Below, one piece after another: positions 7,321-21,337 of a stretch of 64,000 bases of DNA. The notes beneath the pieces were generated by a model. The model worked only from the letters and a program-made list of their open reading frames with translations, was not told the origin of the DNA and searched no databases. Where the stretch lies: NCBI RefSeq assembly GCF_004345365.1, contig NZ_SLVF01000007.1, positions 310,001 through 374,000 on the forward strand, read 5' to 3'. Position 1 is the first letter of the stretch. Every line of letters starts with the position of its first letter. Both the position numbers and the translations under genes were made by a program. This DNA is from Kribbella sp. VKM Ac-2568 (GTDB lineage Bacteria > Actinomycetota > Actinomycetes > Propionibacteriales > Kribbellaceae).

Positions 7321-7657
7321 AGGTACACAATCGCAGCACCCAAGGTCCCCCGCAGCGACACACCCCCAGTACTCCGGCCCGCCCCACGCGCCGACCGCCC
7401 GGACAGCTGACGGAGCAACCCCACAGCGGGCACCAAAACCGCCCCGGTCTGTTACTCCGTGGCGTCGCCCCAGGTCGACGTACCGAGTGACAGGAAGTAG
7501 TCCAGTCGTCGGCCCCAGGCCCCGCGTGCCAACTCCCGCAAGATGACCGAATCCCGTCGACCTCCTGTCACTCGGTACGCCGCCCCCGGCAACCGGCAGG
7601 GCTGACACGCACGTTCGGGCAGTCGCCCACTGAACATTACGGTCTGCAAGCAGGAGC
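7321..7657. other. Intergenic stretch with no supported gene
   Basis: Between the PH-like membrane protein start and the hmgA terminator I find no credible gene. The main structure is a 17-bp inverted repeat with a 67-bp spacer (7479-7579). A 65-codon frame on the minus strand (7452-7649) runs across the repeat but lacks a ribosome site and a recognisable domain. Confidence 0.5.
7479..7579. repeat. 17-bp inverted repeat flanking a 67-bp core
   Basis: CGTACCGAGTGACAGGA (7479-7495) and its exact complement TCCTGTCACTCGGTACG (7563-7579) flank a 67-bp spacer. The layout resembles a small intergenic palindromic element rather than a terminator, because the loop is long and no gene ends near it. 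Copies elsewhere in the genome are expected if it is a dispersed element; I see none in this window. Confidence 0.55.
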
Positions 7658-7691
7658 CGCGGCCGCGCCCACCGAGTGGGTGGGGGCCGCG
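7658..7691 (-). terminator. Terminator downstream of hmgA
   Basis: Nested inverted repeats CGCGGCC (7658-7664) with GGCCGCG (7685-7691), and CCCAC (7668-7672) with GTGGG (7676-7680), form a GC-rich stem about 20 bp past the hmgA stop. Confidence 0.6.
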
Positions 7692-7710
7692 ACGCAGGAG
7701 GGGCGTGGGA

Positions 7711-8901
7711 TTAGACGCGGCGGCCGGCCCAGGTCCAGGCGTAGACCCCGTCGTCGACTGCCGCGCCGCCTTCGCCGAGTTCCAGGGGACGGAAGGTGTC
7801 CACCATCACCGCCAACTCCTCGAACCGGTCCGCGCCTAGAGACGCCTCGATGGCCGACGGTTGCGGGCCGTGGGCGTAGCCGCCGGGGTGCAGGGAGATG
7901 GAGCCGAGGCCGATGCCGGAGCCCTTGCGGGCTTCGTAGTCGCCGCCGCAGTAGAACATGACCTCGTCGGAGTCCACGTTCGAGTGGTAGTACGGCACGG
8001 GCACCGACAGCGGGTGATAGTCGACCTTCCGCGGGACGAAGTTGCAGATGACGAAGTTGTTGCCTTCGAAGACCTGGTGCACGGGTGGCGGCTGGTGGAT
8101 GCGGCCGGTGATCGGCTCGTAGTCGCTCACGTTGAAGGTGTACGGGTAGAGGCAACCGTCCCAGCCGACCACGTCGAAGGGGTGGGTCGCGTACGTCATC
8201 CGGCTGCCGACGATCCCGCTCGGCCCGTTGCCCCGGTGCTTGACGAGCACCTCCACATCGTTGCTCTCGACAACGAAGACGTCACCTGGCGTCTGCAGAT
8301 CGCGTTCGCAGTACGGCGCGTGCTCGAGGAACTGGCCAAAGCGACTGAGATAACGCTTCGGCGGCGCGATGTGACTGTTCGCCTCGATGCAGTAGGCCTG
8401 TACTCCGTCCGCGCCCGGGATCCAGCGGTGCGTGGTGGCTCGCGGGATGATCACGTAGTCGCCCTCGGCTGCGGCGAGCACGCCGAACACGGTCTCGACG
8501 GTCGCGGAGCCGCGCTCGACGTAGACACACTCGTCGCCGATGGCGTTGCGGTAGTACGGCGACGGTTCGGCGGCCACGACGTACGAGATCCGGACGTCGC
8601 CGTTGCCCAGCACAAGCCGGCGGTGCTCGACCGCGTTGTTGTCGATGCCGGCCTTGAACAGGTCGTGCAGTTTCAGGTGACGCGGCGTCAGCGGGTGGTT
8701 CGGCGTGGTCGAGAGGTCCGGCAACTCCCAGACCTGCGAATCGACGATCGCCGACGGCACCCCCGCGTGGTACAGCAGCGACGAGTCGGACGAGAACCCC
8801 TCCTCGCCCATCAGTTCCTCGTAGTACAGCCCACCGTCGGGCTTGCGGAACTGGGTGTGTCGCTTCGGCGGGATCTGCCCGACCTGCCGGTAGTGCGCCA
8901 T
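7711..8901 (-). CDS. hmgA: Homogentisate 1,2-dioxygenase
   Basis: Opens the ring of homogentisate to 4-maleylacetoacetate with Fe(II) and O2, in tyrosine/phenylalanine breakdown. The 396-residue cupin shows the family blocks: THRWIPGADGVQAYC, GNNFVICNFVPRKVDYHP, YYHSNVDSDEV, then LHPGGYAHGPQP, which supply the His/acid/His iron ligands. The start at ATG 8899-8901 is backed by GAAGGAG seven bases away. It diverges from an unknown gene coupled to fahA, across a 102-bp region with a palindrome (8925-8945). The partner hpd lies 11 kb away with its own regulator. Confidence 0.95.
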   Translation of the reverse strand: MAHYRQVGQIPPKRHTQFRKPDGGLYYEELMGEEGFSSDSSLLYHAGVPSAIVDSQVWELPDLSTTPNHPLTPRHLKLHDLFKAGIDNNAVEHRRLVLGNGDVRISYVVAAEPSPYYRNAIGDECVYVERGSATVETVFGVLAAAEGDYVIIPRATTHRWIPGADGVQAYCIEANSHIAPPKRYLSRFGQFLEHAPYCERDLQTPGDVFVVESNDVEVLVKHRGNGPSGIVGSRMTYATHPFDVVGWDGCLYPYTFNVSDYEPITGRIHQPPPVHQVFEGNNFVICNFVPRKVDYHPLSVPVPYYHSNVDSDEVMFYCGGDYEARKGSGIGLGSISLHPGGYAHGPQPSAIEASLGADRFEELAVMVDTFRPLELGEGGAAVDDGVYAWTWAGRRV

Positions 8902-8924
8902 GGCTCCTTCTTCCGAACGGAAAC

Positions 8925-8945
8925 ACACCGGTGACCGACCGGTGT
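8925..8945. promoter_or_regulatory. Palindrome in the hmgA/fahA-operon divergent promoter
   Basis: ACACCGGT (8925-8932) and ACCGGTGT (8938-8945) form an 8-bp inverted repeat around GACCG. A second weaker pair, CGGAC and GTCCG, follows at 8957-8972. Either could bind a regulator of the divergent catabolic units. Confidence 0.5.
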
Positions 8946-9003: not shown

Positions 9004-9858
9004 ATGTCAACCATCCCTGCCCTGTTCCGGCACCTGGTCGACGACGCGGCGATGTTCCCGCCCGGGGACCTGCCCCTGGTCGAGGCCGTGGCCGCGCACC
9101 GGGCGCACCGGAAGTCGGACCATGCAGACCTCGTCGGCCCGTTCGTGTGCACCGATGACGACCTGATGAAGGTTGCCGCCGAGGCGGCCCGCACCGGCGG
9201 CGGCCCGCTCGAGGTCAGCGTGGTCATCATCGGCGGCGCCGGCGGCATCGAGCCCGCCGTCCGGTACGGCGACCGCTCGTCCGAAGTGGTCGTCAAGTCG
9301 GTCGAGGTGCGACTCCGCGACGAGGACGACCTGTCCCGCAACGCGCTCCGGGTGGTCCGCGTCTGCGACGACTGCCTCGACGAGGAGAACGCCTTCGTCG
9401 AGATCGGCCTGGACGGCGCCTGGGAGCGGGCGCTCGACGTGGTCGCCGACGCGGGCTACGCGGCCAAACTGCGCACCGGCGGCCTCGACGCCTCGCTGTT
9501 CCCGAACGCGGACCAGGTCGCGGCGTTCATCACCGCCTGCCTGGATCGCGAGGTCGCGTTCAAGTGCACCGCCGGCCTGCACAACGCCGTCCGGCACACC
9601 GCGACCGACACCGGATTCGAGCATCACGGCTTCCTCAACGTCCTGCTCGCCACCCGGGCCTCGCTCGACGGAGCCGCCCAGGACGAGATGGCCGCGCTGC
9701 TGGAGAATCGTGACGGCGAACCACTCGCCGCACAGGCGAGGGACCTGTCCGAGGCTCAGGCCGTCGGCACCAGGAAGTGGTTCACCTCGTTCGGCTCGTG
9801 CAGCATCGACGAACCCCGTCACGACCTGACCGAACTCGGCCTGCTGGAGACCAAGTGA
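9004..9858 (+). CDS. Uncharacterised protein linked to homogentisate pathway
   Basis: A 284-residue soluble protein that I cannot assign to a named enzyme. The order of strands and helices, with motif-like blocks AKLRTGG (154-160), FKCTAGLHNAVRH (186-198) and HHGFLN (207-212), suggests a beta/alpha-barrel with a conserved Lys/His site; that fold call is inference. It lies between hmgA (divergent) and fahA, whose GTG overlaps its TGA, so it is made together with fumarylacetoacetase. That context makes a catabolic role likely. No glutathione-dependent maleylacetoacetate isomerase is seen here, so an isomerase or hydrolase role is conceivable. The start ATG 9004 is the first in frame. Confidence 0.75.
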   Translation: MSTIPALFRHLVDDAAMFPPGDLPLVEAVAAHRAHRKSDHADLVGPFVCTDDDLMKVAAEAARTGGGPLEVSVVIIGGAGGIEPAVRYGDRSSEVVVKSVEVRLRDEDDLSRNALRVVRVCDDCLDEENAFVEIGLDGAWERALDVVADAGYAAKLRTGGLDASLFPNADQVAAFITACLDREVAFKCTAGLHNAVRHTATDTGFEHHGFLNVLLATRASLDGAAQDEMAALLENRDGEPLAAQARDLSEAQAVGTRKWFTSFGSCSIDEPRHDLTELGLLETK

Positions 9859-11057
9859 CCTGGATCGAGATCCCCGCGAACTCCCCGTTCGGACCCGAGA
9901 ACCTGCCGCTCGGCATCTTCCGGGCCGGGGACGAGGAGCCCCGGGTGGGCGCCGCGATCGGCGACCAGGTGATCGATCTGGCGCTGGTCGCGTCGGCGCA
10001 GATGCTGGACGGCGCGCAGGTCTTCGCCGAGCCGACGCTGAACGCGTTCCTCGCGCGCGGCCCGCGGATCTGGCACGCGACCCGCGAGTGGCTGCTGCAA
10101 CTGGTCTGGAACTCCAACGAGCGGGACGCGGTCGAGCCGCACCTGATCCCGCAGTCCGCGGTGACGATGCTGATGCCGTTCGAGGTCGCGGACTACGTCG
10201 ACTTCTACGCCTCCGAGCGGCACGCGACGAACCTCGGGCGGCTGTTCCGGCCCGACTCCGCACCGCTGCTGCCGAACTGGAAGCACCTGCCGGTCGGGTA
10301 CCACGGCCGCGCCGGCACAGTGGTTGCCAGCGGCACCGACATCGTCCGCCCCTCGGGGCAGCGGAAGGCCCCGGCCGACGACGCCCCGACGTACGGGCCG
10401 TCGCAGCGGCTCGACATCGAGGTGGAGCTCGGCTTCGTCGTCGGGAGCCCGTCGATGCTCGGAAAGCCTGTCTCCGTTGATGATTTCAAGGACCACGTGT
10501 ACGGCGTGGTCGTGGTGAACGACTGGTCCGCCAGGGATCTGCAGGCCTGGGAGTACGTGCCACTCGGGCCGTTCCTCGGCAAGTCGTTCGCCACCTCGAT
10601 CTCCCCGTGGGTGGTCTCGCTGGAGGCACTCGAGGCCGCGGCCGTCCCACTCGGCAAGCAGGAACCCGCCGTCCTCCCGTACCTCGCGGGCGACGGGCTG
10701 ACGAACTACGACATCACCTTCGAGGTGTACCTGAACGGCCAGCTCGTCAGCAGTCCGCCGTACAAGGAGATGTACTGGTCGCCGGCCCAGATGCTCGCTC
10801 ATCTGTCGGTGAACGGCGCCTCGGTCCGCACGGGCGACCTCTTCGCCTCCGGCACGGTCTCCGGGGCCGGGAAGGATCAACGCGGCTCGCTCATCGAGCT
10901 GAGTTGGGGCGGTCGCGAGCCGCTGACCGTGAACGGCGAGGAGCGCACCTTCCTGCAGGACGGCGACGAGGTCACCATCACCGCCCACGCCACCGCCGCC
11001 GACGGCACCCCCATCGGCCTCGGCTCCGTCACCGGCCGCATCCTCCCAGCCATCTGA
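9855..11057 (+). CDS. fahA: Fumarylacetoacetase
   Basis: Cleaves fumarylacetoacetate to fumarate and acetoacetate, the last step of homogentisate breakdown. The 400-residue protein has the N-terminal SH3-like FAH domain and the C-terminal catalytic FAH domain: HATNLGRLFR and LLPNWKHLPVGYHGRAG, LDIEVELGFVVG with the metal-binding acids, NDWSARDLQAWEYVPLGPFLGKS (read as consecutive blocks), and GTVSGAGKDQRGSLIELSWGG. The start is a GTG overlapping the upstream stop (GTGA, 9855-9858), indicating translational coupling. A terminator follows at 11067-11102. Confidence 0.95.
   Translation: MTWIEIPANSPFGPENLPLGIFRAGDEEPRVGAAIGDQVIDLALVASAQMLDGAQVFAEPTLNAFLARGPRIWHATREWLLQLVWNSNERDAVEPHLIPQSAVTMLMPFEVADYVDFYASERHATNLGRLFRPDSAPLLPNWKHLPVGYHGRAGTVVASGTDIVRPSGQRKAPADDAPTYGPSQRLDIEVELGFVVGSPSMLGKPVSVDDFKDHVYGVVVVNDWSARDLQAWEYVPLGPFLGKSFATSISPWVVSLEALEAAAVPLGKQEPAVLPYLAGDGLTNYDITFEVYLNGQLVSSPPYKEMYWSPAQMLAHLSVNGASVRTGDLFASGTVSGAGKDQRGSLIELSWGGREPLTVNGEERTFLQDGDEVTITAHATAADGTPIGLGSVTGRILPAI

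Positions 11058-20020: not shown

Positions 20021-21337
<1,317 letters not shown>

Follow-up and report, generated by a model that had tools for sequence, protein, structure and literature searches.

Bacteria in which the homogentisate pathway has been characterized usually isomerize maleylacetoacetate with MaiA, an enzyme of the zeta glutathione S-transferase (GST) type in which glutathione adds reversibly during the reaction. Actinomycetes lack glutathione. Homogentisate and maleylpyruvate pathways that need no glutathione were described for Gram-positive bacteria in the 1970s and 1980s, in work that reportedly includes that of Crawford and Frick in 1977 and, on Bacillus megaterium (now Priestia), that of Hagedorn and colleagues in 1985. 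In the sister gentisate pathway a solution is known from Corynebacterium, a mycothiol-dependent maleylpyruvate isomerase (Feng 2006, as cited in PMC3937715). Our literature search, in a collection with few subscription papers, found no glutathione-independent or TIM-barrel maleylacetoacetate isomerase, and no enzyme assigned to this step of the glutathione-independent homogentisate pathway. Here we describe a gene family that is the best candidate for this step in bacteria that have no glutathione and lack the usual enzyme.

Gene X and its pathway neighbors

The window analyzed is a 64,000-nucleotide stretch of the Kribbella sp. VKM Ac-2568 genome, in which the following genes are relevant to the pathway:

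7711..8928, minus strand: hmgA, a divergent homogentisate 1,2-dioxygenase (stop codon 7711-7713; Pfam HgmA_N and HgmA_C)
9004..9858, plus strand: gene X, encoding a 284-residue protein of an unnamed family (ATG at 9004, TGA at 9856-9858)
9855..11057, plus strand: fahA, fumarylacetoacetase (GTG start; TIGR01266, 456 bits, cut-off 375)
20024..21271, minus strand: hpd, 4-hydroxyphenylpyruvate dioxygenase (TIGR01263, 425 bits, cut-off 277)

Judged by these model scores, the fahA product is a true fumarylacetoacetase. The hmgA product is of a divergent type: its score against TIGR01015 was 54.7 bits, far below the cut-off of 510.75, and both Pfam models matched it only just above theirs. Its orthologues adjoining X on plasmids are annotated as homogentisate 1,2-dioxygenase. 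The window hpd is 71% identical to the hppD gene of a Tsukamurella plasmid, on which the pathway genes form a complete operon in the order hppD-hmgA-X-fahA.

The initial annotation of this DNA described X as coupled to fahA by a GTGA sequence and as divergent from hmgA. Both descriptions hold. The TGA of X and the GTG of fahA at position 9855 have GTGA in common, a 4 bp overlap of stop and start, and X begins 75 bp from hmgA, which is read from the opposite strand. The same annotation spoke of X as "fused" into the pathway, a term that has to be dropped as the genes overlap by 4 bp and there is no fusion. The two sequence blocks to which it drew attention, AKLRTGG and FKCTAGLHNAVRH, are present in X and belong to the most strongly conserved stretches of the family.

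X is single-copy in this Kribbella genome. No Pfam or NCBIfam model matched it above cut-off, and sequence searches against solved structures returned chance matches only. The models for MaiA (NCBIfam TIGR01262), MDMPI_N (Pfam PF11716) and DeoC (Pfam and NCBIfam) did not match X or any of 26 relatives; X is neither a GST nor a DinB protein. A local likeness to CbiZ (adenosylcobinamide amidohydrolase) was seen in 4 of 27 family members, with a best E value of 7e-5 against Pfam and X itself below the cut-off. It is limited to 48 residues around TAGLHNAVR (X residues 180-227, window positions 9541-9684), and a CbiZ identity was set aside because the likeness spans this one stretch only.

Distribution of X, fahA and MaiA

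A neighborhood survey beside hmgA and fahA, the check proposed by the initial annotation, gave the predicted picture. Of 59 loci, drawn from Actinomycetota, Bacillota (Priestia) and Cyanobacteriota (Kovacikia), 57 have X directly 5' of fahA and in the same orientation, often with hmgA nearby and mostly with gaps of less than 60 bp, although many of these loci belong to Kribbella species and the 57 are therefore not independent events. In a scan of genome contigs, hmgA lay near X at each of the 31 loci obtained and fahA adjoined X at 30; the exception is a metagenome-assembled contig (L023) carrying hmgA and X without fahA. Phyla beyond Actinomycetota were covered through a plasmid collection and Actinomycetota through a genome survey. 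Plasmid records with X came from Streptomyces, Pseudonocardia, Rhodococcus, Tsukamurella, Nonomuraea, Priestia megaterium and the cyanobacterium Kovacikia, and the order was always X then fahA among those examined. Sphingobium plasmids show the arrangement hppD-hmgA-fahA-maiA, with maiA directly after fahA. Among the matches listed, plasmid MaiA was found in Pseudomonadota in every case, and plasmid X only in Actinomycetota, Priestia and Kovacikia.

X was identified in 16 of 296 Actinomycetota genomes (G258 among them). FahA was present in 15 of these 16, compared with 34 of the 296 overall (Fisher p = 4e-15). A wider X profile was positive in 21 of 396 genomes, one marginal match being left out. 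Moreover, X and FahA diverge in step (Mantel r = 0.70, 0 of 5000 permutations), with X evolving faster (mean distance 0.65 versus 0.44). In genomes G086, G319 and G328 (loci L053, L160 and L161), X-fahA occurs together with a canonical HmgA of the proteobacterial type that shares 52-54% identity with the Sphingobium enzyme, so X tracks fahA and not one type of HmgA. The coupling of the genes and the family-wide link between X and FahA are solid observations.

Every uncut genome neighborhood had fahA directly 3' of X except that of G279. In this genome (L061, 5918-8654) X directly follows a gene for a FAD-dependent aromatic hydroxylase (PF01494), and hmgA and fahA are on another contig. Genome G331 has a shortened X (L163, about 7553-8150), an open frame of about 210 residues in which the middle of the barrel is missing; it retains both lysine motifs and precedes fahA.

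The apparent absence of MaiA from the window, pointed out in the initial annotation, extends to the whole 8.9 Mb genome, where the best match to TIGR01262 scored 12.4 bits against a cut-off of 171, and to all 34 fahA-bearing Actinomycetota genomes, none of which had a MaiA above cut-off. Actinomycetota with fahA thus generally lack MaiA, and X, present in 15 of the 34, would make up for this in less than half of them. The remaining 19 carry neither gene. Eight belong to a single genus in the same class (G023, G107, G128, G161, G171, G182, G193 and G246), and G235 has fahA without X or MaiA while its genus-mate G050 carries X. Among the loci listed for X-less genomes, inspected for a replacement isomerase, neither an isomerase-like gene nor a conserved neighbor of fahA was seen; the gene adjoining fahA in G235 encodes a 3-demethylubiquinone methyltransferase-like (PhnB) protein. 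The step is thus apparently met otherwise in these 19 genomes, which may be served by mycothiol enzymes encoded elsewhere or by spontaneous thiol catalysis.

The same could apply to genomes with X. A mycothiol-dependent DinB/MDMPI isomerase encoded elsewhere, or mycothiol without an enzyme, would then isomerize maleylacetoacetate and X would have another job in the pathway. The 19 genomes without X and MaiA speak for this, as do the precedent of the gentisate pathway and the roughly two dozen PF11716 genes (MDMPI_N, mycothiol-transferase type) found elsewhere in the window genome. However, none of these genes is in the X-fahA region, the nearest on the same contig being about 140 kb away, and the link between X and fahA spans three phyla, one of them Bacillota, whose members do not produce mycothiol. 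We regard this explanation as unlikely.

Predicted fold and conserved residues

The AlphaFold model of X, built with 18 sequences (pLDDT 91.4, pTM 0.90), is a single TIM barrel with its eight strands in order. In a fold search with this model 2-deoxyribose-5-phosphate aldolase (DERA) ranked best, some 45 entries giving Z scores of 14.2-15.9, followed by ribulose-phosphate epimerase at 12.1. A divergent family member about 37% identical to X (L031) was also predicted to be a TIM barrel (pLDDT 90.4), and DERA occupied ranks 1 to 37 in its fold search (best Z 12.2). A TIM barrel like that of class I aldolases, with a remote likeness to DERA, is therefore well predicted for X. This agrees with the barrel bearing an active-site lysine or histidine that had been suggested from the sequence blocks, with structure prediction as the proposed check: the predicted barrel has conserved lysines at strand ends and a conserved histidine. 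Two motifs carry the lysines:

9466..9483, plus strand: beta-6 motif KLRTGG, X residues 155-160, placed by hhalign onto the DERA Schiff-base motif KTSTG in every run covering it
9562..9594, plus strand: beta-7 motif KCTAGLHNAVR, X residues 187-197, placed by hhalign onto DERA KPAGGVR (K201)

Wherever the hhalign alignments between X and DeoC covered them, D13 paired with D16, E133 with the beta-5 glutamate, K155 with K167, the Schiff-base lysine of DERA, and K187 with K201. The numbering of D16 and K201 in E. coli DERA was checked against solved chains. The alignment scores were not significant (E values of 0.1-0.76), so remote homology of X to DERA is likely but unproven, and the predicted likeness of fold does not prove function.

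The residues conserved in the X family are D13, E101, E133, K155, R157, K187, H193, H208, N212 and C266. Among 39 members, D13 and K187 were found in all, and K155, H193 and C266 in 38 each. The model places D13 on beta-1, E101 on beta-4, E133 on beta-5, K155 and R157 on beta-6, K187 on beta-7 and C266 just after beta-8. In genome G057, three of these residues of X (L062, 7417-8316) are replaced together, K155 by A, H193 by D and C266 by R; the protein retains D13, K187, H208 and N212, and its locus has the normal order, hmgA-X-fahA. This joint loss, read from the sequence, fits a joint role of the three residues. It cuts the other way too, as a pathway operon here keeps an X in which three key residues are changed.

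The translational coupling and near-universal adjacency would also suit a non-catalytic X that acts as a partner of FahA and enables it to hydrolyze the maleyl isomer. Yet the barrel carries its conserved acidic and basic residues and its conserved Cys where the strands end C-terminally, as an active site would, and FahA occurs without X in many genomes. We consider a partner role of this kind highly improbable.

Proposed reaction and comparison with known enzymes

We propose, with a probability of roughly 55%, that X carries out the cis-trans isomerization of maleylacetoacetate in a homogentisate pathway independent of glutathione and works through a lysine iminium in a DERA-like TIM barrel. 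K155 on beta-6 would attack maleylacetoacetate at the ketone adjoining its cis double bond to form the iminium, with K187, D13 and E101 shuttling protons. The iminium would lower the order of the C2-C3 double bond, either through a dienamine, formed when the acidic proton flanked by the two carbonyls is removed, or by reversible addition of H193 or of C266, the latter serving as an in-built stand-in for the glutathione thiol. The initial annotation had suggested that X may isomerize maleylacetoacetate without a thiol; the cysteine C266 is kept in 38 of 39 members. Rotation about C2-C3 and hydrolysis of the imine would then give fumarylacetoacetate, which would pass to the FahA made from the same message. 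According to the titles of structure entries 7p75, 7p76 and 9fd8, engineered forms of DERA take alpha,beta-unsaturated carbonyls as Schiff bases.

An isomerase function, with maleylacetoacetate as substrate, a Schiff base and a role for C266, is the best explanation of the gene coupling, the link to FahA, the lack of MaiA, the predicted fold and the conserved residues taken together. The genetic link to hmgA and fahA expected of a maleylacetoacetate isomerase was found in the 57 of 59 loci. The presence of X wherever the pathway lacks MaiA was not, since 19 of 34 fahA-bearing genomes have neither, which is where the proposal is weakest. Also counting against an isomerase are Kovacikia, which carries X though Cyanobacteria make glutathione, and G279, whose X is away from hmgA and fahA.

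An active site like that of DERA could accommodate beta-keto acids in general, and X could depend on its lysines but convert a different metabolite of this pathway, or a damage product. It might, for instance, serve as a beta-diketone acid tautomerase, as an acetoacetate decarboxylase or aldolase, or in the removal of maleylacetone or succinylacetone. X is associated more closely with FahA than with HmgA and some genomes have FahA without X, which is consistent with such an activity. Nevertheless, two X clusters contain CoA transferase genes and so have a route for acetoacetate already, and a dispensable side role poorly explains the position of X beside fahA in several phyla where MaiA is missing. 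We find this alternative quite unlikely.

If X is the isomerase, it could stand for a third unrelated family for this kind of cis-trans isomerization, an aldolase-like TIM barrel in which a lysine iminium and the protein's own cysteine replace a diffusible thiol cofactor, present in several phyla and mostly in members without glutathione; we put this forward tentatively, as a fair possibility. X represents a concrete family with residues to mutate, which makes the question of the homogentisate isomerase directly testable, and its assignment could correct the label "hypothetical protein" in many genomes.

The mycothiol-dependent maleylpyruvate isomerase (DinB/MDMPI, PF11716) likewise replaces a glutathione-dependent isomerase, in the gentisate pathway of Actinomycetota, but it belongs to a different family, to which X has no match and from which its predicted TIM barrel sets it apart. 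The gentisate pathway has its answer in this mycothiol enzyme; for homogentisate, the X family gives one concrete gene candidate. With MaiA (TIGR01262), X shares its pathway company (hppD, hmgA and fahA) and the reaction proposed. However, MaiA has a thioredoxin-fold N-terminal and a helical C-terminal domain whereas X is predicted to be a single TIM barrel, has no sequence match to MaiA and is not confined to glutathione-based organisms. The closest likeness is to DERA (DeoC, TIGR00126), which the predicted barrel matches best (Z up to 15.9). The lysine pair of DERA on beta-6 and beta-7 and its aspartate on beta-1 have counterparts in K155, K187 and D13, and the DERA motifs KTSTG, KPAGGVR and FGASS are resembled by KLRTGG, KCTAGLH and FGSCS. 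X differs from DERA in having no significant DeoC sequence match, in its additional conserved residues R157, H193, H208, N212 and C266, in a conserved stretch after beta-7 and in its setting, adjoining fahA in tyrosine catabolism.
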